A stretch of 34,684 nt of DNA, taken from positions 1 through 34,684 of the IMG/VR virus record IMGVR_UViG_3300006931_000023, one strand, 5' to 3'. Of the stretch, positions 1 through 34,178 are shown piece by piece. The first letter of the stretch is position 1; each line of letters starts with the position of its first letter. The notes below the pieces were generated by a model, which saw only the letters and a program-made list of their open reading frames with translations, did not search any database and was not told the DNA's origin. Made by a program: the position numbers and the translations under genes. This stretch comes from a virus.

Positions 1-120
1 CCATATCTAAAGATTTCAATTTCACATATCTATTTCGGGTCTTGATACCACTTTTTTTCCACTTCTCGTTAAGCAAAGCGAATTCGGCATCGGAGTAGCG
101 ATTGTTTACTACGTGCATTT
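1..120. repeat. Terminal direct repeat, left copy
   Basis: The first 120 bases are identical to bases 34565-34684. The repeat lies inside a gene whose frame stays open across the joined ends, which is what a circular or circularly permuted molecule gives after linear assembly. A true short terminal repeat is not excluded. One copy should be removed when counting genes, leaving a unit of about 34,564 bp. Confidence 0.97.
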
Positions 121-163
121 TAGAGTACTTTTCTATTTTTGGTATCTTTTGTTGTCGGCTCAT
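1..163 (-). CDS. Ribbon-helix-helix-like regulator, N-terminal part (gene crosses the junction)
   Basis: This is the 5' part of a 69-residue protein that continues at 34564 and ends at 34518. The ATG at 161-163 opens a basic tail. Then come a short strand (HVVNNRYS), a helix (DAEFALLNEKWKKSG) and a second helix (KTRNRYVKLKSL). That arrangement resembles MobC/Arc-like ribbon-helix-helix DNA-binding proteins; the assignment is by pattern only. A copy of the genome-wide motif TGATACCAA lies 11-19 bases ahead of the ATG, suggesting autoregulation. No ribosome-binding site precedes this ATG, so an internal ATG at 116-118 (MHVVNN) is an alternative start. It is the best candidate here for the protein that reads the motif. 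Confidence 0.6.
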   Translation of the reverse strand, partial: MSRQQKIPKIEKYSKMHVVNNRYSDAEFALLNEKWKKSGIKTRNRYVKLKSLDM

Positions 164-166
164 ATA

Positions 167-195
167 TTTTTAATGATACCAAAAATTATTGCCAA
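167..195 (-). promoter_or_regulatory. Possible promoter with TGATACCAA site ahead of the ribbon-helix-helix gene
   Basis: On the minus strand TTGGCA (195-190) and TAAAAA (172-167) are separated by 17 bases, and the spacer contains TTGGTATCA (182-174). The -10 is poor (4 of 6). A start point from it would fall at or just past the ATG at 163, so any transcript would be leaderless or would favour the internal ATG at 118. The motif copy is certain; the promoter is tentative. Confidence 0.35.
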
Positions 196-401
196 TGCGC
201 ATTAATTTGTTGCTTAAAGATCCAATCGTCGCCTTTCTCTTCCCTGAATTCCTCTTTGATTTGATCGGAATAACGTTTGTCGAAGTTGATATCAAACGCA
301 CATTCTTTTAAATGGTCTTCACACACGAAACATTTAATGGCGTATCCATGAACATCAAAGTAAACATGACTAACCGCGTTATTTTTACAGAATGTACACA
401 T
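186..401 (-). CDS. Small cysteine-rich, probably zinc-binding protein
   Basis: The 71-residue protein opens with CTFC and has a second cysteine pair (CFVC) followed by EDH. Paired cysteines plus histidines suggest one small zinc site; the rest is charged and probably helical. GGAGG sits nine bases ahead of the ATG. The gene follows the 57-residue gene directly and precedes the ribbon-helix-helix gene in the same leftward operon. The fold gives no function; a host-takeover or regulatory role is only a guess. Confidence 0.75.
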   Translation of the reverse strand: MCTFCKNNAVSHVYFDVHGYAIKCFVCEDHLKECAFDINFDKRYSDQIKEEFREEKGDDWIFKQQINAHWQ

Positions 402-402
402 T

Positions 403-576
403 TTAGTTGACCTCCATTTCTATCGTTAAGATCCATTTCTCTTCATCGAAAGGATTAATCCAGGCTCTGTGACCCAAGGCTTCGTAGGCTTCTTTTAACT
501 GCTTGAGTCTTTCGTATCTTTTGTAAACCACCTCTCGGTATCTAATCCCATCTTCTAGAAAGTCCGTGACGTCCAT
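403..576 (-). CDS. Small hypothetical protein (57 aa)
   Basis: An ATG at 574-576 follows a GGGGG ribosome-binding site and opens a 57-codon frame ending in TAA at 405-403. The product begins MDVTDFLEDG, has a lysine/arginine-rich helical middle (YKRYERLKQLKEAYEALG) and ends EMEVN. The reading frame fills the gap between the lipoprotein and the cysteine-rich protein exactly, and its 3' end holds the GGAGG used by the next gene. I do not recognise the family. Confidence 0.7.
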   Translation of the reverse strand: MDVTDFLEDGIRYREVVYKRYERLKQLKEAYEALGHRAWINPFDEEKWILTIEMEVN

Positions 577-617
577 TTTAAACCCCCTTATTTCAACCTA
601 GAATTCGATTTAAGGCG

Positions 618-932
618 TTAATAACCCTTTCCTGCATAGTACTCATCCCCGATGTAATTATGATGCCCACAGTCAACCTTGACCATGAGATATGTATTTC
701 CGTTAATTTCCTGATCGTTCATGTTAGCGACTCTCACCTGTTCGCAGAAGTCGCGGTGGGATTGGGGCACGAAAGAGGGCCAGGTCATGTTCTTTGAACT
801 ATCCAAGTCTTGACAACAAGCCACGGGTAGAAACTGTTCGGCTTGAACCTTTTCGGGGATTCCCATTAAGTTATTTAACTGTTTTGAATGGCATCCGGTT
901 AAGAACAGAATGATTAAAAGAGCTTTTTTCAT
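618..932 (-). CDS. Phage-encoded lipoprotein
   Basis: The 104-residue protein starts with MKK, a short hydrophobic stretch and the lipobox LTGC (Cys14), so it should be processed by signal peptidase II and anchored in the envelope. The mature part has further cysteines (ACCQ, FCEQ, DCGHH) that could form disulfides in the periplasm. GGAGG lies six bases ahead of the ATG, which overlaps the stop of the 38-residue gene by four bases. Small phage lipoproteins often block superinfection, and its place ahead of the packaging genes fits that, but this role is inferred. Confidence 0.8.
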   Translation of the reverse strand: MKKALLIILFLTGCHSKQLNNLMGIPEKVQAEQFLPVACCQDLDSSKNMTWPSFVPQSHRDFCEQVRVANMNDQEINGNTYLMVKVDCGHHNYIGDEYYAGKGY

Positions 933-1045
933 AAATCACCTCCGTTACATAAAATTATCCATTTGGCGCGAAGTAAGTATTCGGGAAATGCATCTCCCGC
1001 TTGGTGAACCACATGGTCGGCGTACAATTCGTAATAAGGGATCAT
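929..1045 (-). CDS. Small hypothetical protein (38 aa)
   Basis: This frame is coupled at both ends. Its ATG (1045-1043) shares ATGA with the stop of the 150-residue gene, and its TGA shares ATGA with the start of the lipoprotein. It encodes MIPYYELYADHVV, then a short mixed segment ending NGGDL. AGAAGG lies ten bases upstream. The double ATGA arrangement is the main reason for calling it; the family is unknown. Confidence 0.6.
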   Translation of the reverse strand: MIPYYELYADHVVHQAGDAFPEYLLRAKWIILCNGGDL

Positions 1046-1494
1046 AAAAACCATACCTTCTTTGTATAGATTTTACGTCCTCGTTTGACCCATTTCTCGA
1101 AGCTAGGATAGTTTGGGACTTTGATATTTTCTGCCACCAGGTTTTCGGCACAGACATGACTTCCAAAGACAAAATTGGGGTGGTTGCTCTCAAGTATTAA
1201 AAATTCAGCGGTGGCGGGTATATTTTCAAAGGGGTCGTTGTAGTAGGAAAAACAAGCTTTGACTTGAATGGGACTTAAAACTTCTTTCTTATCTTTCATT
1301 CCAGCCATTTCAAGGGAGTTAAGAAGGCGGGGGGTCATGACGGATCCGGCAATATGGCGTCCTGAGAGAATTACGTTGCGTTCCATTTTGTTTAAAGACC
1401 GCCATTCGCGTTTGGCCCGTTCAATAATGACCCCGCTGCGGTGAAGCGAATCATCGACAATCCGCTCTCTCCATTCTTTGTTAACGAAGTTCAC
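1042..1494 (-). CDS. Hypothetical protein, GTG start (150 aa)
   Basis: The start is GTG at 1494-1492, overlapping the TGA of the upstream membrane protein by four bases, with a GGGCGGGGG run as ribosome-binding site. The N-terminal third is basic and helical (WRERIVDDSLHRSG, RAKREWRSLNKMERN). The rest is mixed and includes NHPNFVFGSHVCAENLVAENIKVP. No transmembrane segment or catalytic motif is evident. It is the largest protein of the second leftward operon before the junction. I do not recognise it. Confidence 0.75.
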   Translation of the reverse strand: MNFVNKEWRERIVDDSLHRSGVIIERAKREWRSLNKMERNVILSGRHIAGSVMTPRLLNSLEMAGMKDKKEVLSPIQVKACFSYYNDPFENIPATAEFLILESNHPNFVFGSHVCAENLVAENIKVPNYPSFEKWVKRGRKIYTKKVWFL

Positions 1495-1646
1495 AAAGCC
1501 CCCGCCCAGGTCGCAATCAAGTAAAAACCTGTTATAACCACCGTCGATACAGCAACTAAAATAAGGTTCATCTTTAGGTTTGATTTAAAGTCTGACAATT
1601 CCATGATCTCGGCTTCTTCTGCGTCATACATTTCATAGTTTTTCAT
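1491..1646 (-). CDS. Small single-pass membrane protein (51 aa)
   Basis: The ATG at 1646-1644 follows AGGAG with a six-base gap and is the first gene after the strong leftward promoter at 1677-1705. The product has an acidic N-terminal half (YDAEEAEIMELSD) and one hydrophobic helix (LILVAVSTVVITGFYLI) near the C-terminus. Its stop overlaps the next GTG start by four bases. A first-gene membrane peptide could act on the host envelope, but no family is recognised. Confidence 0.7.
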   Translation of the reverse strand: MKNYEMYDAEEAEIMELSDFKSNLKMNLILVAVSTVVITGFYLIATWAGAL

Positions 1647-1676
1647 ACCAATCTCCTTTTGTTACCCTATGAAAGT

Positions 1677-1705
1677 AGTATAAGTTATTGGTATCATTTT
1701 GTCAA
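1677..1705 (-). promoter_or_regulatory. Strong leftward sigma70-type promoter with TGATACCAA in its spacer
   Basis: On the minus strand TTGACA (1705-1700), a 17-base spacer and TATACT (1682-1677) form a near-consensus promoter, 31 bases ahead of the first ATG of the leftward operon. The spacer carries TGATACCAA (1696-1688), so a bound protein would cover the promoter. It probably drives the small-gene cluster and, by read-through across the junction, the packaging genes. Confidence 0.8.
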
Positions 1706-1709
1706 GGGC

Positions 1710-1736
1710 TTATGAAAATAAACTTTTGGGTATAAT
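1710..1736 (+). promoter_or_regulatory. Candidate promoter of the plus-strand gene
   Basis: TATAAT at 1731-1736 is a perfect -10 box, 40 bases ahead of the only plus-strand ATG. The -35 region is weak: TTATGA at 1710-1715 gives a 15-base spacer. It is divergent from the leftward promoter, with the TGATACCAA copy about 35 bases upstream of this -10, so one bound protein could influence both. Confidence 0.45.
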
Positions 1737-1775
1737 AAACGTATCTAAGATATAAACCGTTTTAAAGGAGAGAAA

Positions 1776-2228
1776 ATGACAAAACATAAAAAACATAAGC
1801 ACCATAAAGATTTGACCGAGACGGCCACCCCTCTCGAATCAAAAGCGGCCAAGCTTAAACTCAAGTTTGAGCAACCCGTTCTAAAAAGGAGTATCACCAT
1901 GTTCGAAAAGACAATTACAAATAAGCAAAAGATACAAGCAACAATCGTACCCTTCGTTAAAACCGATGGGACGCCAGCCACCATTCTAGGGATTCCGACC
2001 TGGACGGTCACAAATGGTCTAAGTACCGTTGAAATCGCCGCAGATGGCCTCAGTGCGTTTCTGGTATCCTCAGATACCAACGGGGACACAAACTACGAAG
2101 TAGACGCATCTGTGGACTTCGGAGCGGGTGCTGTAGCGGTCTCTGCCAACGTTCTTTTGCATGTCACGGATTCCACCTCTCCTAGTGATAGCATTCAGCT
2201 TACGTTTGCTGATCCAGTGGATAAATAA
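1776..2228 (+). CDS. Ig-like domain protein, lone plus-strand (moron-like) gene with two starts
   Basis: The 150-residue protein starts at an ATG five bases after AGGAG. Residues 1-12 are almost all Lys/His (MTKHKKHKHHKD). From about residue 42 the protein is a beta-rich Ig/BIG2-like domain with the pattern TPATILGIPTWTV, AADGLSAFLVSSDT and ending LTFADPVDK. Such domains are common on phage structural proteins and exported host proteins. A second AGGAG precedes an in-frame ATG at 1899 (MFEKTITNKQ), so a long form with a cationic tail and a short form are both plausible. It is the only gene on this strand, with its own -10 box and terminator. It could be a decoration or anti-host protein. Confidence 0.85.
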   Translation: MTKHKKHKHHKDLTETATPLESKAAKLKLKFEQPVLKRSITMFEKTITNKQKIQATIVPFVKTDGTPATILGIPTWTVTNGLSTVEIAADGLSAFLVSSDTNGDTNYEVDASVDFGAGAVAVSANVLLHVTDSTSPSDSIQLTFADPVDK

Positions 2229-2244
2229 GTTAATATTCAAACTG

Positions 2245-2281
2245 GGGAAGGGACTCTTCGAGCGGGTCTCTTCCCTTTTTT
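2245..2281 (+). terminator. Rho-independent terminator of the plus-strand gene
   Basis: GGGAAGGGACTC (2245-2256) pairs with GGGTCTCTTCCC (2264-2275), with two G-U pairs, around a seven-base loop, and is followed by six T. It lies 17 bases after the TAA of the plus-strand gene and abuts the end of the convergent methyltransferase gene. It has no T-tract in the minus direction. Confidence 0.88.
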
Positions 2282-3077
2282 AAAAGTTAAACACTTCCTG
2301 GCTCAATCTTTTTGCTGCGATTTCGCAGTACTTTTCTTCTATCTCTATTCCGATAGCTTTACGGCCTAAGTCTTTGGCTGCGCGGAGGGTGGTTCCACTT
2401 CCCATAAAAGGGTCCAATACAGTATCGCCTTCATTGGACCAAGAAAGAACATGATCTCTAGCCAAGGCATCGGGAAATATCGCCGGATGTTCATAAGCAA
2501 TATCATCTAAAGTCGATTTAGCGTATCCCGTCTTGTAAAGCCAAACGTTTGAAACATTCCCTTCATCTAGAGTATATCGAGTCTTTCCGTTGTTGCTGTT
2601 TATCGTTCCGTCTTTCTGCCGTTCTCTTTCCTTGTAAACCATATTTCCCCATATGTTTTTCTTTTTAATCGGGTTAAAGGTTTTTATTTTTCCTTTGGTA
2701 AGAATGAACATATATTCAAAAATTGGTTGGTAGCGGGTTGCCTCTGGAAAAGGGAATCCATCTTTAAGATAAATCATCGTGTCGTGGATATTAAATCCTA
2801 TTTCTTTGAAATATAAAGCATGACGAAAAGAATCTCCGGATTCAGATCCATCTTTTGTTTGGTCCATTTCTACCCAAACCATCGTAGTCCTTTCTTTTAG
2901 GTTACTCCACAATGCTTTTGCGGTCGCTTCAAAATCAAAGGTATATCCACCATAATTTCGTAAATCACCATAAGGGGGGGAAGTTAAAACCATGTCAACC
3001 CCTTGAAGAAGTGGAATAATTTCAGAATTTTCCCCGTGGTAGATGGTTATTCCTGCGTGTTCATAATATGGTTTCAT
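2280..3077 (-). CDS. Beta-class DNA methyltransferase (N4-cytosine or N6-adenine)
   Basis: The 265-residue protein has the catalytic motif TSPPYGDL at residues 32-39 and the S-adenosylmethionine motif DPFMGSGTT near residue 222. The order IV then I marks the beta class. SPPY is commonest in N4-cytosine enzymes but also occurs in N6-adenine ones. The C-terminal IGIEIEEKYCEIAAKRL is typical. No restriction enzyme is adjacent, so it probably protects phage DNA from host nucleases. It lies downstream of the early-operon terminators and therefore needs its own promoter or read-through; no clear ribosome-binding site is seen. Length is normal for the family, and its target is unknown. Confidence 0.93.
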   Translation of the reverse strand: MKPYYEHAGITIYHGENSEIIPLLQGVDMVLTSPPYGDLRNYGGYTFDFEATAKALWSNLKERTTMVWVEMDQTKDGSESGDSFRHALYFKEIGFNIHDTMIYLKDGFPFPEATRYQPIFEYMFILTKGKIKTFNPIKKKNIWGNMVYKERERQKDGTINSNNGKTRYTLDEGNVSNVWLYKTGYAKSTLDDIAYEHPAIFPDALARDHVLSWSNEGDTVLDPFMGSGTTLRAAKDLGRKAIGIEIEEKYCEIAAKRLSQEVFNF

Positions 3078-3324
3078 TTTTCACACTTTATTTAAAATTT
3101 GGACATGCCTCCAACTTTTCTTTGTTTCCCTGCATCTATAGTATTTGCAGGAATTCAAGGATTTAACATCTCCAATACAACACTCAATCTTTTAAGAACT
3201 TATGAGTATGCAGGTCGTGGGTTGTGAGAAAGTTGTCAAAAGCACAGAGCCCACACTGGTGTCGAGTTTCTTTCGCTTGATTAAGGTTCAGCAAAGAGCA
3301 TTTGAACGAAACCTGTCTACAAAT
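3078..3324. other. Gene-poor gap between methyltransferase and early-operon terminators
   Basis: No convincing gene is seen. The stretch holds a 6-bp hairpin (CCTGCA 3129-3134 with TGCAGG 3146-3151) just ahead of the methyltransferase. It also holds a short minus-strand frame at 3294-3184 whose translation includes HQCGLC and THDLHTH but which lacks an ATG and a ribosome-binding site. A minus-strand promoter for the methyltransferase is expected here; TTGAGT (about 3187-3182) with TAAATC 16 bases on is the best weak candidate. Confidence 0.5.
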
Positions 3325-3443
3325 AAAAAACCCCACCCCTCATGGAAGTAAGAGGTAGGGCATAAAAAGAAAAACCCAGGATACTGACCGCCCTTTCGAC
3401 GGGGCAAGAGTATCGCTGGGTTTAATTGACGATTTCTCGTCAA
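3325..3443 (-). ncRNA. Three-hairpin RNA element ending in a rho-independent terminator
   Basis: Read on the minus strand there are three consecutive hairpins. First, TTGACGA-GAAA-TCGTCAA (3443-3426) has a GNRA tetraloop. Second is a compound hairpin (3423-3372) with outer arms AAACCCAG/CTGGGTTT, middle arms GATACT/AGTATC and inner arms GCCC/GGGC, followed by TTTTTCTTTTT. Third is an 11-bp stem (3360-3350 with 3341-3331) followed by TTTTTT. The last two are credible terminators closing the early operon, whose last gene stops at 3536. The first hairpin and the internal loops of the second are more than a terminator needs, so a stable small RNA or a riboregulator is possible. I recognise no known riboswitch or ribozyme. 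Confidence 0.7.
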
Positions 3444-3535
3444 AATAGATGTTTCTTGTTGTCGAAATATTATTGGTCATGTTTAAGATTTTTAATTATT
3501 TATTAGTTATTTGGCAACAACTATTTTAAATATTT

Positions 3536-3724
3536 TTAAGGCCCCACCGTGATTTGCCCAAATCCTCCAAAGACAGACCCTAAAAGTAGGCATATTCCTA
3601 TGACCACGATAAGGACTGATACCACTTGGTTGAACTTAGGTGTTTCATTTAACATAGCATTCACCCAGTAAGCCAAGCAGGTTAAGACAACAATTAAGAA
3701 AATACGGATTATGTTTATATGCAT
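3536..3724 (-). CDS. Small membrane protein with two transmembrane helices
   Basis: The 62-residue protein has two hydrophobic segments (IIRIFLIVVLTCLAYWV and VVSVLIVVIGICLLLGSVFGG) joined by a short polar loop. AGGAGG lies eight bases ahead of the ATG. It is the last gene of the early operon, 90 bases before the hairpin cluster. Topology would allow a holin or anti-holin role, but the early position argues for a membrane-acting accessory protein. No family is recognised. Its coding sequence contains TGATACCA in the plus sense at 3617-3624. Confidence 0.72.
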   Translation of the reverse strand: MHINIIRIFLIVVLTCLAYWVNAMLNETPKFNQVVSVLIVVIGICLLLGSVFGGFGQITVGP

Positions 3725-3778
3725 AAAAAAAGCCTCCTTTTAAACAGATACTTCTACTACGTTTTAAAATCTGGAACG

Positions 3779-3970
3779 TTATTTGTCTGATGCCTTGGTT
3801 GGATAGGTGATTCCTTGACTTGTAAGATAATTTTCACAATCTTTTCTGATGTTATTTAATATTACTTCAAAAGTATCGTTTGGGTTTAATGCCATATCTA
3901 TTTGAGCAAGTATTTTCTCTAGGAATTCGTATTTGAGACGCCACCTGAGTTCGGATTGCTTGTGTGTCAT
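3779..3970 (-). CDS. Small hypothetical protein (63 aa)
   Basis: The start ATG shares ATGA with the stop of the 32-residue membrane peptide. The product is helical and charged (ELRWRLKYEFLEKILAQID) and ends KASDK, with one cysteine. No motif is recognised. It belongs to the coupled chain of small early genes. Confidence 0.68.
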   Translation of the reverse strand: MTHKQSELRWRLKYEFLEKILAQIDMALNPNDTFEVILNNIRKDCENYLTSQGITYPTKASDK

Positions 3971-4065
3971 TTTACAGCCAAGCTATAGCAGATAATCATG
4001 ATATCCATTCCCACCCAGAAACCAATAAAGAGATTGGTGAATTCGGAATCGTTAAACTTTTTCAT
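3967..4065 (-). CDS. 32-residue membrane peptide
   Basis: The frame starts at ATG 4065-4063, overlaps the end of the upstream gene by 14 bases and shares ATGA with the next gene. It encodes MKKFNDSEFTNLF followed by one hydrophobic stretch (IGFWVGMDIMIICYSLAV). GGTGG lies about eight bases upstream. The double coupling and the membrane segment support a real gene; its function is unknown. Confidence 0.55.
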   Translation of the reverse strand: MKKFNDSEFTNLFIGFWVGMDIMIICYSLAVK

Positions 4066-4375
4066 TTTTTACCACCTTGGGCCAGTTTTCATCAAGCCAA
4101 TCCAAAATTAAAGATTCAAAAGGATTAATTATTGTATTTACTGGAAGACATCTTCTTAAAGCTTGTTCTCGTATTTCTTCACTTGGTTTCTTTTCAGGTT
4201 CCAATTTGATCCAGTCCTCACCTTCTATAAATCTTTGCTTTTCTGAAAAATCGTCTTCTGTTAAAAAACTATTTTTTCCAATTGCGGTGATTGTTTCTTG
4301 ATAGGACTTATCCCATAACTTATTTAATATTTTATCTCCGACTTTAAACTTTTCTTTAAATTCTTGGGGTGTCAT
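4052..4375 (-). CDS. Hypothetical protein (107 aa)
   Basis: The protein begins MTPQEFKEKFKVGDKIL and is acidic/basic mixed, with no membrane segment. The first 50 residues resemble a small barrel-like segment (VGDKILNKLWDKSYQETITAIG), and the C-terminal part (FESLILDWLDENWPKVV) is helical. The ATG shares ATGA with the upstream gene. The family is unknown. Confidence 0.72.
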   Translation of the reverse strand: MTPQEFKEKFKVGDKILNKLWDKSYQETITAIGKNSFLTEDDFSEKQRFIEGEDWIKLEPEKKPSEEIREQALRRCLPVNTIINPFESLILDWLDENWPKVVKNEKV

Positions 4376-4698
4376 TTCTTCTCCGCCTTCAGCGTTTGGT
4401 ATTCGGACTCGATTTGATAGTCAGCGTGATCTCGGGGATCTAAACATTTACAACTAATCCCGATATATTTCTTTTTAAGTTCATGAACTTTTCTTAGTTC
4501 ATCTCTCGCAACGTTCCTCGCCGCCTGAAAACGTAGCTCTAAATTTTCCATTCGAATTTGCCGATCTTTAGAAATTGCAATTTCAATATTTCGATGCTCT
4601 TCCACCTTATCCAAGAGGAACTGGAGTATTTCTTTTGACTCCATGGAAAAAACATCTTGGTCTTCAGAAAGCATCTTTTTAATGTCTTCTATGGTCAT
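4372..4698 (-). CDS. Coiled-coil hypothetical protein (108 aa)
   Basis: The start is taken at ATG 4698-4696 (MTIEDIKKML), which shares ATGA with the upstream stop. A longer frame from 4719 has no such coupling. The body is a long charged helix (SKEILQFLLDKVEEHRNIEIAISKDRQIR onward, given here only in part as EILQFLLDKVEEHRN) likely to form a coiled coil. A short C-terminal part holds CKCLDPRDHADY, which could bind a metal. Function is not recognised. Confidence 0.72.
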   Translation of the reverse strand: MTIEDIKKMLSEDQDVFSMESKEILQFLLDKVEEHRNIEIAISKDRQIRMENLELRFQAARNVARDELRKVHELKKKYIGISCKCLDPRDHADYQIESEYQTLKAEKK

Positions 4699-5796: not shown

Positions 5797-5933
5797 AATT
5801 CACAATAATCCCAAACTGTGTTTCTATAGTAGGGATTTTTCTCCTTTTTTCCGTAGTGACGTTCACGAACTGTTGTTTCTGACAAGCAGACAGGACAAAA
5901 AGATATAAAGAATCTGTACCAATGCTTTTTCAT
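5793..5933 (-). CDS. 46-residue protein with CPVC motif
   Basis: This frame is coupled by ATGA overlaps on both sides and has GGAAGGA ahead of its ATG. It encodes MKKHWYRFFISFCPVCLSE, a basic middle (RERHYGKKEKNPYY) and ends WDYCEL. Two or three cysteines plus histidines could form a small zinc knuckle. The family is unknown. Confidence 0.62.
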   Translation of the reverse strand: MKKHWYRFFISFCPVCLSETTVRERHYGKKEKNPYYRNTVWDYCEL

Positions 5934-6309: not shown

Positions 6310-6310
6310 T

Positions 6311-6652: not shown

Positions 6653-6685
6653 GTTTTACACCTCATACTTCTCCATTTAAATTTT

Positions 6686-6803: not shown

Positions 6804-6824
6804 TTATGTTTTACACCTCATGCT

Positions 6825-7071: not shown

Positions 7072-7074
7072 AAA

Positions 7075-7293
7075 TTAATCCAGCCCTCCGCAGATTCCCT
7101 TTGATGTAACAATGGATGAAAGTAGAGTAGTCCGCTCGGGGCTGAAATCTTTTTTGAATTGGCCTCTTTTTAAAGGAAATAGTTTCAATTTCTCCTCTTG
7201 AATTTCTTGCCACTTTTCAAAGTGTTGGAATATTTCATGTCGGTTCCGGTCTTGATAGCTTTTTGATTTAAAGGGACACCAAGGGCAACGCAT
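7075..7293 (-). CDS. C2H2 zinc-finger protein
   Basis: The 72-residue protein starts MRCPWCPFKSKSYQDRNRHE. It has C-x2-C-x12-H-x4-H spacing (Cys3, Cys6, His19, His24), a canonical C2H2 finger of the kind used mainly in eukaryotes and a few bacterial Ros-type regulators. The tail is basic and probably helical. The position just after the recombination genes suggests a DNA-binding accessory or regulatory protein. The ATG follows GGAG at a long spacing of about 11 bases. Confidence 0.78.
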   Translation of the reverse strand: MRCPWCPFKSKSYQDRNRHEIFQHFEKWQEIQEEKLKLFPLKRGQFKKDFSPERTTLLSSIVTSKGICGGLD

Positions 7294-7422: not shown

Positions 7423-8520
7423 TTATTCATCTTTTTTATGTGTAAACCTTAACGTTGATGAAATGGTAAGCGCTTGCGCCAAATTGTTCGCCAAGTTGTC
7501 ATCGGTTTTGCAAAGTTTTTTAATTTCTTTGGTGTCACATTTGAGATAATTCCAGGGTTCAATATTGTTATTCGTTAGTACTGATACCAACTCTTTTGTA
7601 TCGCCTTTCCATGTTTCGTAAGGGAAGAAAGAGAAAGTTTCACCATTCACTTTTATTTCACCATTATCCTGTATCCAGCCCTTAAGTATTTCTTTCTTTG
7701 ATTCAAGCTGAGATTCAATGGCAAGAATATCTTCAGCCACTTTTTGCGCAGATCTTTTATTTCCGATTTCTTTAATGGATGAAGCTTTTTTAGTGCAGGC
7801 GAACGCAACCATACAAGAAGAGCACCGAGAACCTGGCTTTGCTTTGAAACGCTGGTCTTCTTTCATGGTTTCCGTGATTGCTTTGATTTGAAATTCAATC
7901 CCTGATAATTTTTCTTTAGGAAACTGCCACTTTTCTTTCCAGTTTGAGCGAACATAATGGATCACCACCTCGAAGTTTGTTATGTCGGGATAATATTTTG
8001 AAATGAGATAGGCATAGAGTTGGACTTGGAAGGTATCCGATTTCCCATGAAAACCTGTTTTGTAATCCGTTATACGGGCCGTGGTGCCTCGAATATCCAA
8101 CCTGTCGATGATTCCCCTCATCCACACGTTCTCAGCCAGGAAATCGCAAGGTAGGCCGTCTGCCATCAATCCTAGCTTGAGTTCGCAGCTTGTTTGCCAG
8201 CCTTTAAGATCAGACCAATCAAGATTTTGTATAAAAGCATCACAAATAGATAAATATTCATCATAAAGTGATTGATCTTTTGGTTCTTTTGCCCAACAAT
8301 TCAAAGCGACCATGCTCAGATGATCCAATAAATCATCTGCTACGCCAGGGAGATTCCCTTTTATTCCATCTTCAACCCATGCTTGAAAGAATTCATGCGC
8401 CGCCGCACCCAAGGTCATGGGGTCGCTTTCGTCTTTTCCGACTTTATCCAAATAGGTGAGCTTGTAGCTTAAGGGGCATTCAGTCCAAGCTTTAATTTTA
8501 GAATAGCTATAGGAATTCAT
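7423..8520 (-). CDS. RecB/Cas4-like PD-(D/E)XK nuclease with Fe-S cysteines
   Basis: The start is ATG 8520-8518, overlapping the annealase stop as TAATG, giving 365 residues. The longer frame to 8607 is inside the annealase gene. Nuclease motifs appear in order: LGAAAHEFF (His42), RGIIDRLD (Asp139), ITDYKTG (Asp152, Lys154) and VQLYAYL (Gln167). An N-terminal Cys15 (TECPLS) and a C-terminal CSSCMVAFAC set match the 4Fe-4S staple of Cas4/AddB-type enzymes. It probably resects DNA ends to load the adjacent Bet-like annealase, replacing the lambda Exo type. The last 100 residues are helical and have no recognised domain. Confidence 0.88.
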   Translation of the reverse strand: MNSYSYSKIKAWTECPLSYKLTYLDKVGKDESDPMTLGAAAHEFFQAWVEDGIKGNLPGVADDLLDHLSMVALNCWAKEPKDQSLYDEYLSICDAFIQNLDWSDLKGWQTSCELKLGLMADGLPCDFLAENVWMRGIIDRLDIRGTTARITDYKTGFHGKSDTFQVQLYAYLISKYYPDITNFEVVIHYVRSNWKEKWQFPKEKLSGIEFQIKAITETMKEDQRFKAKPGSRCSSCMVAFACTKKASSIKEIGNKRSAQKVAEDILAIESQLESKKEILKGWIQDNGEIKVNGETFSFFPYETWKGDTKELVSVLTNNNIEPWNYLKCDTKEIKKLCKTDDNLANNLAQALTISSTLRFTHKKDE

Positions 8521-9323
8521 TACTGTCCTACTTGCATCGACTTGGCCCATTCGAGAATTTCCGCGGCCTGTGAATTGTTCAAATCTTTCGATGTACTTAA
8601 ATTCCACCGCTTATTTATTTCTAATTTCACTAAGTCTTTGTTGATTCCGGCGTTTGTAATCTGGGTGTGAAAATATTTGAGTTGAACAGGCGTCATTTTG
8701 TCATCCAAATGATCGGGCGCTCCCTTAATTTCCTCAGTGTCCCCACCAATTTCCTCAGCGATATAAACACCGGACGTTTCAGCAGGAAAAGCTTTTCGAT
8801 GAGCCAAAGCCTCAGCACATTTTGCCAGCATAATATGAGGTTTCACTTTCCAATTCTGTTTGGGTCGATATTCACCCGTCGATTTATCTTTGGTCAATTG
8901 GACATATTCGTCATAACGTGCTGTAGAGGAAACCTCAAACCATTTATCATCAACTCGCTTTTGAATATAGGCAGTCGCTGATACCAATTTTTTATCTTCA
9001 TCATATTCATAGGTGGTATCTTTTCCAGGTGCGTAATTTTTAGATCTGTCAGACAACATTCGATAACCATCGATTCCCGTATAGGCTGTCATCACGTAAG
9101 CACCGATATCTTGATTCCAAATCTTCATCATGTAAATTTGTTTCATGAAGGGATCCAAATTTGTTTTGTTGCAAATGTGAAGGAAGAGTTTTAATTCGTC
9201 GTCGGAAGCACCCTTAGCAACAGTGCGTTTGATGAGATCAATTTGAGGGCGGGTAAATCCTGCAACTGTTTTTGGTGTGATTGTTTTCGGTGTGGTTACA
9301 GCGACTTCATTTGTGTCAGTCAT
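8520..9323 (-). CDS. bet: Bet/RecT-type single-strand annealing recombinase
   Basis: The 267-residue protein carries the lambda Bet signature around LFLHICNKTNLDPFMKQIY, followed by AYTGIDGYRMLSDRS and, later, KPHIMLAKCAEALAHRKAFP. It should anneal complementary single strands during phage recombination and recombination-dependent replication. The start is placed at ATG 9323 (MTDTNEVAVT) because GGAGG lies five bases before it; an in-frame ATG at 9335 lacks this. It is the first gene after the 9.36-9.39 kb promoter and is coupled to the nuclease gene. The C-terminal third (HLDDKMTPVQLKYFHTQI) is the expected variable tail. Confidence 0.92.
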   Translation of the reverse strand: MTDTNEVAVTTPKTITPKTVAGFTRPQIDLIKRTVAKGASDDELKLFLHICNKTNLDPFMKQIYMMKIWNQDIGAYVMTAYTGIDGYRMLSDRSKNYAPGKDTTYEYDEDKKLVSATAYIQKRVDDKWFEVSSTARYDEYVQLTKDKSTGEYRPKQNWKVKPHIMLAKCAEALAHRKAFPAETSGVYIAEEIGGDTEEIKGAPDHLDDKMTPVQLKYFHTQITNAGINKDLVKLEINKRWNLSTSKDLNNSQAAEILEWAKSMQVGQ

Positions 9324-9358: not shown

Positions 9359-9405
9359 AATATAACTTACAAATGATACCAATGTCAATAAATATTTGAT
9401 ACCAA
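9359..9405 (-). promoter_or_regulatory. Early-operon promoter with two TGATACCAA sites
   Basis: On the minus strand TTGACA (9388-9383) and TATATT (9364-9359) are 18 bases apart (TTATAT with a 17-base spacer is equivalent), 36 bases ahead of the bet ATG. One TTGGTATCA copy fills the spacer next to the -35 (9382-9374). A second lies just upstream (9405-9397), in the same orientation and 23 bases away, about two helical turns. This is the arrangement expected for a repressor that blocks polymerase cooperatively. Confidence 0.82.
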
Positions 9406-9469: not shown

Positions 9470-9745
9470 TCAGGAGGAGAGCGATGAAGGCGGTACGGTT
9501 GGAACTGAGGTCGAGGTCGTAACAGTTGTGTTTTTGGTCAGGACCGTCGTATCTTTTTTGTTTTTCATGTAGGTATCCATGACGGTTCCCCCACCGATAA
9601 GACCCAACGCCATGACCTCGCACGCCATCCAGGTTTGGGTGTCTATCATTTTAAAGAGAAAGAACAAATGCGACGTGATGAAAAACCAAAGTCCTATTCC
9701 GACTTTTCTCGAATCGTTAAATAAGAGAATTTTAAAGAGGCCCAT
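9470..9745 (-). CDS. Holin-like membrane protein, two transmembrane helices
   Basis: The 91-residue protein has two hydrophobic segments (VGIGLWFFITSHLFFLF and WMACEVMALGLIGGGTVM), a charged stretch (MKNKKD) and a Ser/Thr/Val tail. Size and topology fit a class II holin, which would form lesions that release the endolysin. It is the last gene of the late operon, within the lysis/envelope cluster, and its ATG overlaps the upstream stop as TAATG. The assignment rests on topology and position only. Confidence 0.62.
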   Translation of the reverse strand: MGLFKILLFNDSRKVGIGLWFFITSHLFFLFKMIDTQTWMACEVMALGLIGGGTVMDTYMKNKKDTTVLTKNTTVTTSTSVPTVPPSSLSS

Positions 9746-10188
9746 TAAGGTTTTGGATTGAGTCCAAAAGCAAGTCCTACCGAGAAAGCTAAGTAGGAAT
9801 GTTTTTCTCTAAAGTCATAAGCAAAAGCCGGACCTGCTTCTACAGAATTTAAAAATGTCCAATTGGGACTCAACGTCACGAATTCTCTGATGAGTGGTGA
9901 GATATTAATATAAGCGTCTGCCACATATCCCGCACCCGCTGTCTGATTGTCATCTGGGTTTGTGATACCAGTAAAACCGAACCGAAGTTGACCGATGGCT
10001 GATCCTTTCCATTGTCCAATTTCCACAATGTCAGTGAGAAGCGCCAAACGGTTTTCGCCTTTGGTTGTCCATTGTGAGCTGGCGGACACGTGATCGACCA
10101 AAGATGCTTTAATCTGATCGCCCAAAATATCCGCTTTTAAAATACACGGTGAAATCATCAACAACAATGCAGCAAGTACTTTTTTCAT
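9745..10188 (-). CDS. Exported, probably outer-membrane beta-barrel protein
   Basis: The start at 10188 has a strong ribosome-binding site (AAAAAGGAG, eight bases away) and opens a Sec signal peptide (MKKVLAALLLMISPCILKAD). The 147-residue product has alternating beta segments (IGQLRFGFTGI, SYLAFSVGLAFGL) and aromatic residues as in small outer-membrane barrels. A phage-made barrel could change the host surface, for example to exclude other phages, or assist lysis. The same frame extends upstream without a stop to an ATG at 10389 that is coupled to the preceding gene, so a longer form is possible. Confidence 0.7.
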   Translation of the reverse strand: MKKVLAALLLMISPCILKADILGDQIKASLVDHVSASSQWTTKGENRLALLTDIVEIGQWKGSAIGQLRFGFTGITNPDDNQTAGAGYVADAYINISPLIREFVTLSPNWTFLNSVEAGPAFAYDFREKHSYLAFSVGLAFGLNPKP

Positions 10189-10389
10189 TTCTAATCTCCT
10201 TTTTCTCTGTCTTTCTTTATAATAAATATTGCTCCGTTCTCTCTGGGCGGCTGTGATACCAATTCTATGAGCCAAGAAATAATAACCTGGGATATCACGA
10301 TCTTTTCTTCTGGTCTTTAACCATTTCTGATAATCGGGTGAGGCAACAATCATGTTAATTGTTTTCTCTAAAATTTGTAGATAGTTCAT
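10189..10389 (-). other. In-frame upstream extension of the outer-membrane protein gene (67 codons)
   Basis: An ATG at 10389 shares ATGA with the stop of the upstream exported-protein gene, and its frame runs without interruption into the signal-peptide start at 10188. The 67 residues look like a soluble, very basic domain (YQKWLKTRRKDRDIP, then KERQRKRRLE). If translated in full, the signal peptide would become an internal membrane anchor. The two start signals may give two products, or this may be the remnant of a separate gene whose stop was lost. Confidence 0.5.
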
Positions 10390-29361: not shown

Positions 29362-29375
29362 TAATCCAATTGAGC

Positions 29376-29702: not shown

Positions 29703-29998
29703 GGCTTTTTAATAGGTGGTGTGGCGGGTTTTGGGGATAGGGGAGCAACCGCAGGCTTAGGTGGCGCAACAGGAACCACAGGTTTTTGCGGAATAATGGG
29801 GGCCACTGGCTTGGGAACCACTTTGCCATCGTTGTATTCCATGATGATCGGGTCGCCATAAGAATTTGGGAGTGATACTTTAATACCCCATTTCTCGACT
29901 AAATCTTTTACATCTTTCTGTGTGGGGTTTAGGTTTGCGTACTTATCCCCTTTCAAAACAAACGTTACATTAAAGGAATGATCTTCATATCTACCCAT
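29699..29998 (-). CDS. Hypothetical protein with Pro/Ala/Lys-rich tail (99 aa)
   Basis: About 60 residues of mixed sequence (MGRYEDHSFNVTFVLKGDKY) are followed by a tail with repeated PKP, PKPxV and PVxP units that should be extended and flexible. GGAGG precedes the ATG, and the gene overlaps its neighbours by a few bases. Such tails often connect or tether proteins; the function is unknown. Confidence 0.66.
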   Translation of the reverse strand: MGRYEDHSFNVTFVLKGDKYANLNPTQKDVKDLVEKWGIKVSLPNSYGDPIIMEYNDGKVVPKPVAPIIPQKPVVPVAPPKPAVAPLSPKPATPPIKKP

Positions 29999-30275
29999 AA
30001 TAAAGCCTCCATAAAAAATCTTTTAAAGTTTTAAATCTGTTCTTGTTTAACTGTCTTACAACTTTATCAGAAACGCTTTCCGTTGAGCAAAGAAGCAATG
30101 CTTCTCTTGGATTCATCCCATATAACCATATTTTAAAATCATTTCGTGAAAGATGAAATATTACTTCTTCATCCTCAGGATAGTGGAGGTTCGCTAAATA
30201 AGCCATGTGAGCATATTCTTTGCCAGACAACTTCCTGGCTGGCATCGGATCGCCCTCGGGATTTGTTAACGGCAT
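29991..30275 (-). CDS. Hypothetical protein (94 aa)
   Basis: The protein has a helical N-terminal part (ARKLSGKEYAHMAYLANLHY) and a C-terminal region (MNPREALLLCSTESVSDKVV). The ATG overlaps the upstream stop as TAATG. No motif is recognised. It is one of six small genes between terminase and portal. Confidence 0.66.
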   Translation of the reverse strand: MPLTNPEGDPMPARKLSGKEYAHMAYLANLHYPEDEEVIFHLSRNDFKIWLYGMNPREALLLCSTESVSDKVVRQLNKNRFKTLKDFLWRLYYG

Positions 30276-30505
30276 TATTGAGTGATGACCAGTCGCATGA
30301 TTTCGCGGTTCATCATCTGTAAAATCGAGCCCCGTGAGTTCGCGTCAGTAATGACACGCTTCCTATTTCCTTTCTCATCTAATTGGACCAATTCCCAAAG
30401 AGACTTAAAAGGCCCCGACCTTAACGCTCTCACTGCAAGTACACAGTCGTAGCGAATAGGTTCGCTCTTTTCTGCTATGGGTTTAATCTTAATTGGGGCG
30501 GGCAC
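30275..30505 (-). CDS. Small hypothetical protein, GTG start (76 aa)
   Basis: The start is GTG at 30505-30503 with GGAGG six bases upstream, inside the end of the preceding gene. The product is basic, beta-like in the middle (YDCVLAVRALRSGPFKSLWE) and helical at the end. The family is unknown. Confidence 0.64.
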   Translation of the reverse strand: MPAPIKIKPIAEKSEPIRYDCVLAVRALRSGPFKSLWELVQLDEKGNRKRVITDANSRGSILQMMNREIMRLVITQ

Positions 30506-30773
30506 TGGACGCCTCCGGCTGGGTCTTGTATTGATTTCTCATCTTCTCAATTTCATCAGGTCCAATCTCAACAATTAACTTTTGATGAATCGTGTTTAAG
30601 AAGTTCATCCCATCTAACATGGCGGTGGCCATTCTAAGAGGAGGACCGAAGTTCATAGAGTTCACTGCATGAAAGAAGTTCTCGATTATTAACAACGACT
30701 TCTTGGCATTTTCAATTCCTATCTCTTCATTTGTCAAAGGCTGTCCGTCTGTCCCTATAATTCCATTAACCAT
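30489..30773 (-). CDS. Helical hypothetical protein (94 aa)
   Basis: The start is ATG 30773 (MVNGIIGTDGQPLTNEEIG), after AAAGGGAG. The longer frame from 30953 runs through the KTSC gene and is rejected. The protein is helical (NAKKSLLIIENFFHAVNSMN) and ends in a Ser/Ala/Pro tail. Function is unknown. Confidence 0.68.
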   Translation of the reverse strand: MVNGIIGTDGQPLTNEEIGIENAKKSLLIIENFFHAVNSMNFGPPLRMATAMLDGMNFLNTIHQKLIVEIGPDEIEKMRNQYKTQPEASSARPN

Positions 30774-30774
30774 T

Positions 30775-31092
30775 TTAACTCCCTTTCTTTTTAGTTTTCG
30801 CTGATATGCGCGGTCCGACATTTTTGTCGACAATTCGCGTCGACGGATATTTTCCTCGAATGAATTTCGAATAATATTCTCCTTTAGATGGAGCTTGCAT
30901 AAAGTCATCCACCGTCTGTGGGTAAATCTGTGGATAAAGATATTGTCCACCATCTTTCATGGTGACTGTCAATTGCATGGAACTTTGATCATAGGCCAGA
31001 TGCATAAGAAAACTTGAATCGGCGATACCGGTTTCAATCTTCTTTGAATTGCTTTGTCCACCAAAAGATGGATGTTGAACTATTTGTGCCAT
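30775..31092 (-). CDS. KTSC-domain protein
   Basis: The 105-residue protein fits the small KTSC domain family: SSFLMHLAYDQSSMQLTVTM, then GGQYLYPQIYPQTVDDFM and PSKGEYYSKFIRGKYPSTRI. The domain occurs alone in phages and with lysyl-tRNA synthetase or transferase fusions elsewhere; its biochemical role is not known. The protein ends in a basic tail (SAKTKKKGS). It lies in the packaging cluster. Confidence 0.82.
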   Translation of the reverse strand: MAQIVQHPSFGGQSNSKKIETGIADSSFLMHLAYDQSSMQLTVTMKDGGQYLYPQIYPQTVDDFMQAPSKGEYYSKFIRGKYPSTRIVDKNVGPRISAKTKKKGS

Positions 31093-31250
31093 TTCTTTAT
31101 CAGCTCTTTAAAGAAGTTTTCTTTTATCGCATCAATCTTGTCTGAGAATTCTTTATTTATTTTCTTCAATTTTAAACGTTGCTTAGAAGATAAATGCTGC
31201 CACCAATTGCAACACCAATAAGGATTTACTGAATGCCGAAATCTAGCCAT
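31080..31250 (-). CDS. Small basic protein (56 aa)
   Basis: The frame starts at ATG 31250, overlaps the terminase stop by eight bases and runs into the KTSC gene by 13. It encodes MARFRHSVNPYWCCNWWQHL then a lysine-rich helix (SKQRLKLKKINKEFS) ending KKWHK. The Trp/Cys-rich start could bind metal or membrane. The compact placement supports it; its function is unknown. Confidence 0.6.
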   Translation of the reverse strand: MARFRHSVNPYWCCNWWQHLSSKQRLKLKKINKEFSDKIDAIKENFFKELIKKWHK

Positions 31251-32754
31251 TCGCTTTTACTCTCCAATCCTCTGTGGTCTTTTGTCTCGTTGTTATCTTA
31301 AAAGCTTGTCTTAACGTTTTATAAGTCGGTGATTCGATTTTTGTTTGAGGGATTGAATGCGTCTGGTCCGATATGCCAAGTAATGGCGGAATGGGATTGG
31401 TTTGAGTGTCCACGTGTCTGAGCAAATAACATAATGCAGCCAACCCATCAAAGTGTCCATAATTTGTCGATCTCGCAAAAGCTTTTTTACTTTTGTCCCA
31501 GATTCCATTCTCTAAACATCCTATTAAATATTTGCAATTTGGTTTAACGATTAATCTGCCAGCGTTCACCCAAAGCCTGAGTTCGTTGACCATTCCGAAA
31601 TCTTCATCACCGGTGTTAGAGTTAAGAACTCCTTTTGTTGTGGCCATGAAAGGGAGATTATGTTTCGGGCCTGAGAGATCGTTTAAGATGATGAGATTAT
31701 TATTGTCTCCAATACGGCGATACATCTTTGTGTAACCAAGCAACTTTTCTTTTTCTTTTGTTCGCTCGGCCAAGATGTCGGTACGAACCATATCGCCTTT
31801 AAGGAGAACCTCATCTTCAACAATCATCTTTCCCAACTTAAAGTTATAGTAGCCGAAACCATTAATCGTAAAGTCTCGGACTCCTGTGTCTAGGAATTCG
31901 TATTTGTGATAGAAATTGAAAAGATTATCTCGTAGGAAGTCTTGGACATATTTCTCACTCGACCATTCAGGAACGATTAAGCGATTGGTATCTACCACCC
32001 ACCGACACATCATTTCCCGTTCCCACGCCAAGGGGTCAGTGTTTCTTCTCTTCATCTCTTCTATTTTGTGTTGGGGGATGTCTGAGTTTAAAATATCAAA
32101 TGTGGCCACGCATCCACTGGCTTGGGCTCTTTCATAATAAATCTTACAAGGATGGTTTGGAACATCAGGAGGTGTTGTCATGATGATAATTCGTGGGGTG
32201 GACTTTGTACGAATGAACATGGGATTGAGTATATGTTCAATTACATAGTCGAGTGGGTAGGAATCGTCTTCATCTCCAAAGAAAGCAGCTTCATCGATTA
32301 AAACTAAAATTACTTTGTGGATTCCCCTAAGATCTTCGATATGACCTTTTTCTGCTGCACATAAATGCACTCTAATTCCGCTTGGAAATTCATAAGTGCT
32401 ATCTTGCGCGTGGTATTTTGGACGGTAACTCTCTGGACAGTCGCGGAGAATTTGCTCAAAAGTTGGCTTGACAATTGTTCTAAGCTTTTTAAGCGTTCCA
32501 GATACGATGAGTATACTTCCTTCCACTTCTCTTCTAGCCGATTCAATTCCAAGTATGCTTCCGAGGAAAGTCTTTCCAAATCCTCGGTGACATAAAAGAA
32601 AGAAGATCTCTTCTGCGGGACTTCGTTTGATGTGGTCATAGGCTTCTCTTTGTTTTGGTTCTAGTTTGAATCTAAGCTGTCCAATCTCCCAGAGATTATG
32701 AACAGCTGCTTTAAACTCGGGCGACTGTTGGTTGATTAATTGTGCCGTTGGCAT
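31243..32754 (-). CDS. terL: Terminase large subunit
   Basis: The 503-residue protein has a Walker A variant (CHRGFGKTF, residues 55-63), Walker B with catalytic acidic pair (VILVLIDEAAFF, Asp154/Glu155), the coupling region IIIMTTPPDVP and an RNase H-like nuclease part from about residue 285 (LDTGVRDFTINGFGYYNF, GDNNNLIILNDLSG, NYGHFDGLAALCYL). It translocates and cuts DNA during packaging. The start lies 44 bases inside the small-subunit gene. It is full length; the packaging mode (headful or cos) cannot be read from it here. Confidence 0.93.
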   Translation of the reverse strand: MPTAQLINQQSPEFKAAVHNLWEIGQLRFKLEPKQREAYDHIKRSPAEEIFFLLCHRGFGKTFLGSILGIESARREVEGSILIVSGTLKKLRTIVKPTFEQILRDCPESYRPKYHAQDSTYEFPSGIRVHLCAAEKGHIEDLRGIHKVILVLIDEAAFFGDEDDSYPLDYVIEHILNPMFIRTKSTPRIIIMTTPPDVPNHPCKIYYERAQASGCVATFDILNSDIPQHKIEEMKRRNTDPLAWEREMMCRWVVDTNRLIVPEWSSEKYVQDFLRDNLFNFYHKYEFLDTGVRDFTINGFGYYNFKLGKMIVEDEVLLKGDMVRTDILAERTKEKEKLLGYTKMYRRIGDNNNLIILNDLSGPKHNLPFMATTKGVLNSNTGDEDFGMVNELRLWVNAGRLIVKPNCKYLIGCLENGIWDKSKKAFARSTNYGHFDGLAALCYLLRHVDTQTNPIPPLLGISDQTHSIPQTKIESPTYKTLRQAFKITTRQKTTEDWRVKANG

Positions 32755-33100
32755 TTAGTTCGCGCATAAGTTTCAAAGTTGTCTCGGCCATTCGAAGTGC
32801 AGCGTCTGGAGAAACGTTTTGATCTATCTTTTGTTTAAGCGCATACTCTTCATAATATTTTCTCTCTAACAACCATGCGGCAGCTTGCCATGATTTTAAA
32901 GCGGCGTCTCTGATATATCCGATGCATCTTGATTTAAACTTTGCTTCGGCCTTTTTAATAGCTTCAGAAAATTCAGGCTTTTGCATCCAAACTGTGAATG
33001 TCTCATATGAGATATCGGATAGTAAACACGTATCGGTTCTGTTATTTCCTTGTTCTATATTGATGCAAATCTCTAATGTTTTTTCAGGTCCATATTTCAT
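32711..33100 (-). CDS. terS: Terminase small subunit
   Basis: The start is taken at ATG 33100 (MKYGPEKTLEICINIEQGN), sharing ATGA with the upstream stop; a frame to 33145 is inside the previous gene. The 129-residue protein has an N-terminal helix-turn-helix (DTCLLSDISYETFTVWMQ), a helical core (EFSEAIKKAEAKFKSRCIG, WQAAAWLLERKYYEEYALKQ) and a C-terminal tail. This is the classic small-terminase layout for DNA recognition. It is directly followed by the large subunit. Confidence 0.88.
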   Translation of the reverse strand: MKYGPEKTLEICINIEQGNNRTDTCLLSDISYETFTVWMQKPEFSEAIKKAEAKFKSRCIGYIRDAALKSWQAAAWLLERKYYEEYALKQKIDQNVSPDAALRMAETTLKLMRELNANGTINQPTVARV

Positions 33101-33375
33101 TTGAGGAGTCCCACCTTTGGACTGAATCTCTCGACGGTAAAGCATCCGTATGGGATATTACTATTGATATGGACTGGAACTGAGATAAATTTAAAGTTTC
33201 CATAGTCATCTGGAAAATAGGCATTTTTGCTTCTGAGAATTTCGACAAACTTTTTGTAGGCGATAGGGTGCAAAGTGATACCAAGAGGGAGAGGTTTTTG
33301 ATGACGTGCATCTAGCATAATTTGATTCATCATTTTTTCAATATTTCTTTCAATCCATGAGTTTGAATCTTTCAT
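33097..33375 (-). CDS. Hypothetical protein (92 aa)
   Basis: The protein is mixed, with a helical start (KDSNSWIERNIEKMMNQIM) and a short beta region (FKFISVPVHINSNIPYG). Both ends are coupled by ATGA overlaps. It contains TGATACCAA in the plus sense at 33276-33284. The family is unknown. Confidence 0.68.
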   Translation of the reverse strand: MKDSNSWIERNIEKMMNQIMLDARHQKPLPLGITLHPIAYKKFVEILRSKNAYFPDDYGNFKFISVPVHINSNIPYGCFTVERFSPKVGLLK

Positions 33376-33512
33376 TTCTTAACCTTCACATTAAAGAAAT
33401 ACTCTACTATTATTTCATATCCTACGAAAAGAAAAATTGCAATGAGAATGCTTAAGATAAAAGTAATTGTTAGGAGTGCTGTTATCTCAATTAAGAATCT
33501 TAAAACATTCAT
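33372..33512 (-). CDS. 46-residue membrane peptide
   Basis: The frame is coupled by ATGA overlaps on both sides. It encodes MNVLRFLIEI and a long hydrophobic helix (LLTITFILSILIAIFLFVGY) ending NVKVKK. It is a likely single-pass membrane peptide. Function is unknown. Confidence 0.6.
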   Translation of the reverse strand: MNVLRFLIEITALLTITFILSILIAIFLFVGYEIIVEYFFNVKVKK

Positions 33513-33760
33513 TTAAGCATTGTAAAGTGCAATCCGTTTTCTTCTTTCCATTTCCTGCGGCGTTCATCGGTCCATATTTCGTAGCGTTGCCGTTTGCACT
33601 CGGGGCATTCTCGAATTGTTAGAAACATCATTCGCCCTTCTGGAGTCTGACCCAATCCTTCGTGTTTTAAATTGCTGGTCCGACACATCCGCAACTGACA
33701 GAGAAGCTTCACTTCTTCACCATCCATAGAGTTTTTGAATTTGGTATCAAGTATCGACAT
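33509..33760 (-). CDS. Zinc-ribbon-like hypothetical protein (83 aa)
   Basis: The protein has cysteines in ECPECKRQR and in LLCQLRMCRTS, consistent with a four-cysteine zinc ribbon, and a basic end (ERRRKWKEENG). No good ribosome-binding site precedes the ATG. TTGGTATCA is present near the start at 33741-33749. The family is not recognised. Confidence 0.62.
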   Translation of the reverse strand: MSILDTKFKNSMDGEEVKLLCQLRMCRTSNLKHEGLGQTPEGRMMFLTIRECPECKRQRYEIWTDERRRKWKEENGLHFTMLK

Positions 33761-33791
33761 AAATTGTTCATGGTTAAGGTGAACATGATTT

Positions 33792-34178
33792 TTATTTTAA
33801 GACTTTCTTCTCGCTTTTCATTTTCTGTAACATAAGTTCTAGTGCTAGAGCTATTTCTGCTTCATCTACCTTTTGCGGTGTAGCGGCCCTTACAGCCAAT
33901 GCTTGGAAACGTTTGAGTCCTAATCTCTTCTTGAAAAACTCTACGTGATCATTTGGATTTCCGCTAAAGTAATTATGACATGAAAAACAGAGGGAGGCAC
34001 AATTTTCTGGATCGAATCTGACTGATTTTTTCGCTCGGCTGTGGAAGTGTGAGTTATGAAGTCCTTGTGCTGGCTTTTCAAATTCTTTATGGCATCTTTC
34101 ACATGAATATCCCGCTAATTCTCGAATGTAATTACTAAATAAAGCATCCGCTTTTGATCGCTTGATACCAAAAGACAT
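33792..34178 (-). CDS. NinG/Rap-like recombination endonuclease
   Basis: The start is ATG 34178 (MSFGIKRSKAD), overlapping the previous stop as TAATG. The 128-residue protein has CERCHKEFEKPAQGLHNSHF, then SVRFDPENCASLCFSCHNYF and SGNPNDHVEFF, the zinc-bound pattern of lambda NinG (Rap), which cleaves branched DNA. It probably processes recombination intermediates made by the Bet-like protein encoded in the other operon. The frame to 34217 is inside the preceding small gene and is rejected. TGATACCAA occurs at 34163-34171. Confidence 0.8.
   Translation of the reverse strand: MSFGIKRSKADALFSNYIRELAGYSCERCHKEFEKPAQGLHNSHFHSRAKKSVRFDPENCASLCFSCHNYFSGNPNDHVEFFKKRLGLKRFQALAVRAATPQKVDEAEIALALELMLQKMKSEKKVLK

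Follow-up and report, generated by a model that had tools for sequence, protein, structure and literature searches.

A dispersed and oriented nine-base word confined to the non-virion part of a phage genome is a likely operator

The window analysed here, 34,684 bases long, is the whole of a phage record and carries a 120 bp direct repeat at both ends. The genome is circular or terminally redundant, as seen from this end repeat, and measures 34,564 bp if circular. Nearly all genes lie on the minus strand. The non-virion part includes genes for a RecT-like annealing protein, a phage exonuclease and a NinG-like endonuclease (Table 1), and the other recognisable genes encode a DNA methyltransferase, the small and large terminase proteins, the portal and an endolysin. 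No tRNA was found in the window, and no integrase family was hit among the proteins scanned. The sole clear plus-strand gene (1776-2228) sits between two early operons and has no family match; by eye, the C-terminal part of its product resembles a virion decoration protein or an Ig-like one. ORF 9745-10389 (minus strand) is an apparent fusion of a short basic N-terminal part of about 68 residues with a secreted protein that has its own signal peptide and an in-frame ATG, and two of the sites described below (9963 and 10254) are inside it.

The word TGATACCA is present at 13 distinct sites of the genome, ten of them exact copies of TGATACCAA, where about one match is expected. The window itself holds 14 matches, the one at 34607 being site 43 again because of the terminal repeat, against 0.80 +/- 0.82 (largest value, 3) in dinucleotide shuffles. 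The original prediction had listed the ten TGATACCAA sites together with TGATACCA at 43, 3617 and 9963, all of which are present, and its estimate of about one 8-mer match by chance agrees with the shuffles. The core is strict at eight bases, and the ninth base is A in 10 of the 13 sites and C or G in the others. One-mismatch variants at the remaining positions showed no clear excess, and no longer consensus was found around the sites, whose flanks hold little information. Since nearly all genes are on the minus strand, most copies appear as TTGGTATCA when read in the mRNA sense. The spacings of paired half-sites in the window are 35, 45 and 23 bp, with differing polarity.

Table 1. Copies of the word, promoters and genes discussed in the text
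Feature	Position	Strand	Context
TGATACCAC	43..51	+	In RHH-like ORF, encoding Gly-Ile (GGT ATC); second copy at 34607-34615 through the terminal repeat
AGATACCAA, one-mismatch copy	139..147	-	In RHH-like ORF, inverted relative to site 174; possibly chance
TGATACCAA	174..182	+	Intergenic, between ORF 186-401 and RHH-like ORF; in weak 9/12 promoter match
TCATACCAA, one-mismatch copy	1643..1651	+	Over the start codon downstream of P1705; possibly chance
TGATACCAA	1688..1696	-	Spacer of P1705
TGATACCAC	3617..3625	+	ORF 3536-3724, Val-Ser
TGATACCAA	7582..7590	+	Exonuclease gene
TGATACCAA	8979..8987	+	recT
TGATACCAA	9374..9382	+	Spacer of P9388
TGATACCAA	9397..9405	+	Directly upstream of the P9388 -35 element
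TGATACCAG	9963..9971	+	ORF 9745-10389, Gly-Ile
TGATACCAA	10254..10262	+	ORF 9745-10389, Gly-Ile
TGATACCAA	33276..33284	+	ORF 33097-33375, Gly-Ile
TGATACCAA	33741..33749	-	Codons 4-7 of ORF 33509-33760, Asp-Thr
TGATACCAA	34163..34171	+	Codons 3-6 of NinG-like gene
P1705, TTGACA-17-TATACT, 11/12	1677..1705	-	TTGACA AAATGATACCAATAACT TATACT; then Shine-Dalgarno aaggag and ATG at 1646
P9388, TTGACA-18-TATATT, 11/12	9359..9388	-	TTGACA TTGGTATCATTTGTAAGT TATATT; then Shine-Dalgarno gatggagg and recT ATG at 9323
RHH-like ORF, 69 aa	1..163 + 34518..34684	-	ATG at 163; crosses the circular join
Phage exonuclease	7423..8607	-	PHROG_69, E=2.4e-31; second gene downstream of P9388
RecT-like annealing protein	8520..9323	-	PHROG_2780, E=3e-41; first gene downstream of P9388
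NinG-like endonuclease	33792..34178	-	PHROG_5034, E=8.4e-23

The over-representation of the word was confirmed. TGATACCAA is the top over-represented 9-mer of the genome (10 copies vs 0.31 expected under a first-order model) and also its most over-represented dispersed 9-mer, with a log10 P of -9.0 under a second-order model in which hits within 200 bp were counted once. The same second-order scoring was applied to 11 genomes as a control scan for dispersed words. Lambda (-5.8), P22 (-5.7) and the relative G001 (-5.2) were all weaker, and genomes with known dispersed elements scored higher: T7 reached -15.3 with words that are parts of the T7 promoter, and Bxb1 reached -16.1 with ACACGTAAC, which fits the core of the Bxb1 stoperator. 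Words of another kind, namely simple CCG words in contig G004 (-8.9) and the top word of contig G005 (-7.8), come near the score of TGATACCAA, so that this score is a strong hint and not a proof.

Concerning position, all 13 sites are located in the 12.3 kb non-virion part of the genome and none in the 22 kb virion module, a confinement with a chance of about 1.5e-6 under uniform placement. Eleven sites are on the plus strand and two on the minus strand (p = 0.022), a bias that is modest by itself. Nine of the 13 sites are inside genes, and eight of these nine have the same sense (p = 0.039). The word had been described as oriented and restricted to the non-structural region, and both properties hold.

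Could the excess be a product of chance, or of codon or dipeptide use? Five in-gene copies encode Gly-Ile, and some unrelated genomes score near the present one through simple coding repeats, as G004 does. The in-gene copies are nevertheless read in three frames (Gly-Ile, Val-Ser or Asp-Thr), and the nine sites in early genes compare with 0.94 expected when synonymous codons were shuffled and 0.55 when codon order was shuffled, a count reached in 0 of 1000 codon-aware shuffles; the late genes have none against 0.75 expected. Codon-aware shuffling had been named beforehand as a possible refutation, and the significance was kept. Early intergenic DNA, moreover, amounts to only about 1,134 bp and holds four exact sites. 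In G001, the ortholog of ORF 33097-33375 keeps the residues LGIT but writes them CTG GGA ATT ACC instead of CTT GGT ATC ACT; as the amino acids are kept and the word is not, protein constraint fails to explain site 33276. The view that the word is not a protein motif is borne out by its different frames and by the lack of a codon effect, and we regard chance or coding by-product as very improbable.

Only two sigma-70-type promoter matches at 11/12 exist in the genome, both on the coding strand, and each of them, P1705 and P9388, holds an exact TGATACCAA between its -35 and -10 elements. Downstream of both, a Shine-Dalgarno sequence and a start codon lie at the usual distance. P9388 precedes recT and the exonuclease gene, and P1705 precedes an operon leading to a small ORF with a ribbon-helix-helix (RHH) residue pattern. 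The chance of finding the word in both of the best promoter spacers is about 6e-4 and becomes 0.7% when the four intergenic sites are taken as given, and the word has opposite orientations in the two. The original prediction had placed three intergenic copies in actual or possible promoter spacers. This was upheld for sites 1688 and 9374 and not for site 174, where the 9/12 match is weak and badly placed for the start of the RHH-like ORF, with no Shine-Dalgarno sequence seen.

The promoter copies could also belong to an activator site or a phage-specific promoter element through which a phage factor is brought to promoters of the early or middle class, the in-gene copies being internal promoters. 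A word in promoter spacers is what phage transcription elements look like, and the T7 promoters gave a like signal in the control scan. But P1705 and P9388 have near-consensus -35 and -10 elements that should need no help, the word points in opposite directions in them, no promoter match of at least 10/12 overlaps an in-gene copy, and the genes scanned showed neither a phage RNA polymerase nor a sigma factor; we consider such an element quite unlikely. An element acting in early mRNAs as UUGGUAUCA, through antitermination, decay or translation control, has a still lower probability and is the least credible of the explanations weighed here. It would account for the 11 of 13 sites that have the UUGGUAUCA sense in transcripts, but site 1688 is reversed, sites 1688 and 9374 lie in promoter spacers upstream of the start sites, and an Rfam search of the window gave no match to any RNA family.

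We looked for the word in relatives of the phage. Six contigs with common virion genes (G001 to G006) showed no excess of TGATACCAA. They are without recT, the exonuclease gene and the RHH-like ORF; of the early module they share no more than a few short matches and, in G001, a NinG-like gene. Because the early module is also missing from these virion relatives, the lack of the motif in them is neither conservation nor refutation. Viral contigs, a collection that may lack those closest to the window, were queried with TerL, RecT, the exonuclease and the RHH-like ORF, genome contigs and phage records were queried with TerL, and capsid and TerL were aligned. TerL had no match in the genome contigs, and the relatives that came out shared the virion module only, none having the early module or an excess of the motif. 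Two pattern searches yielded candidates that were rejected: the motif-richest loci with a double-site pattern in viral contigs were mostly tandem or clustered repeats of unrelated kind, and a pattern of promoter plus operator, run against viral and genome contigs, gave 179 loci, of which 149 had one copy and the best had three, which is the chance level. No convincing equivalent dispersed word was identified in the relatives, three of which (G002, G004 and G005) are dominated by their own repeats. These three are rich in short words (CCCGTACCCG, CGACCTCGAC, CCCGGACCCG), mostly on one strand, that are probably coding repeats.

Two other features were observed in these comparisons. A non-coding segment of about 130 bases (3182-3309), which comes just after a terminator-like hairpin (3361-3330), matches positions 33575-33703 of G001 with 78% identity, and around it the non-virion genes of the window and G001 are mostly unrelated; it is possibly a small RNA, an origin or a packaging signal. 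In an unrelated AT-rich phage (G007, IMGVR_UViG_3300026488_000040), positions 490-690 contain an array of GTATC-N6-GATAC palindromes, several of them with TGATACCA. The array lies immediately upstream of a small ORF (250-453, minus strand) that by eye may be RHH-like and has no Pfam hit. This array looks like an autoregulatory operator or a partition site.

A recombination, replication or segregation signal, such as a Chi-like sequence, an initiator box or a centromere-like site, would also be short, strict and oriented. The near-invariant 8-mer without degenerate copies, the strand bias and the RecT and exonuclease encoded by the phage all agree with it. On the other hand, 22 kb of the same genome lack the word, each of the two best promoters has an exact copy precisely between its -35 and -10 elements, and the virion relatives have no excess. 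A Chi-like signal had been put forward as the main alternative; confinement and promoter placement disfavour it, and we judge explanations of this class improbable.

As for the protein that might recognise the word, the early ORFs that were scanned against Pfam and PHROGs gave no hit to a helix-turn-helix (HTH) or repressor family. The RHH-like ORF, of 69 residues, has its first 54 codons in 1..163, and residues 16-69 are also read in 34518..34684 owing to the terminal repeat; its stop overlaps the next start (TGATG) and site 174 is about 10 bp upstream of its ATG. It matches a Pfam NikA-like family at 15.6 bits, below the cut-off of 27 (E=0.019), and, weakly, PHROG_30322 (E=0.0056), a family of unknown function. 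The best NCBIfam hit is an unrelated family (E=0.015), and no PDB match was found. In two single-sequence models (mean pLDDT 64 and 60) the first helix alone was clear, and neither of these low-confidence models displayed a clear beta-alpha-alpha or RHH fold. In our reading the ORF has the residue pattern of an RHH domain. The RHH protein of the original prediction has a candidate, the ORF from 163 to 34518, whose assignment depends on sub-threshold hits and on this pattern; it may be the protein that binds the sites. Like the RHH repressors Arc, CopG and the NikA/MobC-like proteins, it is a small ORF with the RHH sequence pattern and lies close to a putative site of its own. The operators of RHH proteins are usually paired or palindromic, whereas the word is asymmetric and its sites are mostly single, which counts against this candidate. 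An alternative candidate DNA-binding protein is encoded by the small ORF 7075-7293 (minus strand), which is C2H2 zinc-finger-like (CPWC and then a His pair) and has no family match. ORF 1042-1494 is a further alternative.

A literature search for the 9-mer gave no relevant site in titles or abstracts among the matches listed, and no RHH site similar to the motif came out of a paper search. Among known systems, the stoperators of Cluster A mycobacteriophages such as L5 and Bxb1 are asymmetric sites of 13-14 bp that lack dyad symmetry, present at 20-30 per genome and oriented with transcription; some lie in the early promoter, and they are bound by a monomeric repressor with HTH and Stoperator domains (PMC6550527, PMC9283540). 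The word described here is likewise asymmetric and dispersed, with many copies outside promoters and some in early promoters (1688 and 9374), and 11 of its 13 sites have one orientation, a modest bias. It differs in that its core has eight bases plus a preferred A, in that there are 13 sites, and in that 9 of the 13 are in genes whereas the non-promoter stoperators occupy short intergenic gaps. No repressor with HTH or Stoperator domains was recognised among the early ORFs scanned, and the genome is not Cluster A-like. The resemblance to stoperators that had been proposed is then partial: dispersal, asymmetry and promoter copies agree, as perhaps does the modest orientation bias, and length, intergenic placement and repressor do not. 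The system falls outside the stoperators of Cluster A, although it perhaps works like one. Another comparison is with SPbeta, where a 15 bp element is repeated at promoter and intergenic sites under the master repressor MrpR, which has a tyrosine-recombinase fold (PMC10516654). Both phages would use one short word at several promoters, but no repressor with that fold was found here among the proteins scanned. The C1 operators of phage P1 are also asymmetric and scattered over the phage genome; those sites are longer and the repressor is unrelated.

We consider it somewhat better than an even chance that TGATACCA(A) is the operator of a phage regulator that blocks the early promoters, with the in-gene copies acting as roadblocks or occupancy aids. 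An operator role of the sites is in itself likely, given their positions: copies lying between the -35 and -10 elements, whichever way they point, suit a steric repressor, and promoters as strong as these need no activator. The word would be the binding site of a phage-encoded sequence-specific regulator, and occupancy of the copies in P9388 and P1705 would prevent RNA polymerase from starting. The P1705 operon takes in the RHH-like ORF and ninG on its way to the terminase genes. This ORF, the foremost but weak candidate for the regulator, would be downstream of P1705 and close to site 174, and could provide negative feedback and switch the early genes off. Such control could serve either lysogeny or early shut-off. 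The lack of sites in the virion operon also fits, because roadblocks there would hurt late transcription, which would proceed unhindered. Against the operator reading, operators usually have a tail of degenerate copies and the core of the word is almost invariant.

The copies inside early genes, mostly in one orientation, might be weak roadblocks to elongation or might raise the occupancy of the regulator; a stoperator-like block of elongation is possible by analogy. Alternatively, the sites could be operators at promoters only, the in-gene copies being decoys or passengers with no effect on elongation. An anatomical explanation exists just for the promoter copies, and a block of elongation is inferred. 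Even so, nine in-gene copies where less than one is expected, eight of them in one orientation, call for selection, and we give this restricted version a small probability.

To our knowledge, no regulation has been described for the phage group of this genome, and good descriptions of genome-wide elongation control through a phage repressor come only from Cluster A-like actinobacterial phages. That the word with its regulator forms an independent stoperator-type network outside actinobacterial phages, in which a small autoregulator, RHH or of another non-HTH kind, reads a 9 bp word, represses two early promoters and blocks elongation in the early operons, with the virion genes spared, is a more ambitious proposal that we hold to be doubtful. 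The analysis names testable promoters and a candidate regulator. If such a network is real, it would be a second and unrelated case, with a much shorter site, which would mean that the strategy evolves repeatedly and that simply scanning uncultured phages for words could reveal such systems.
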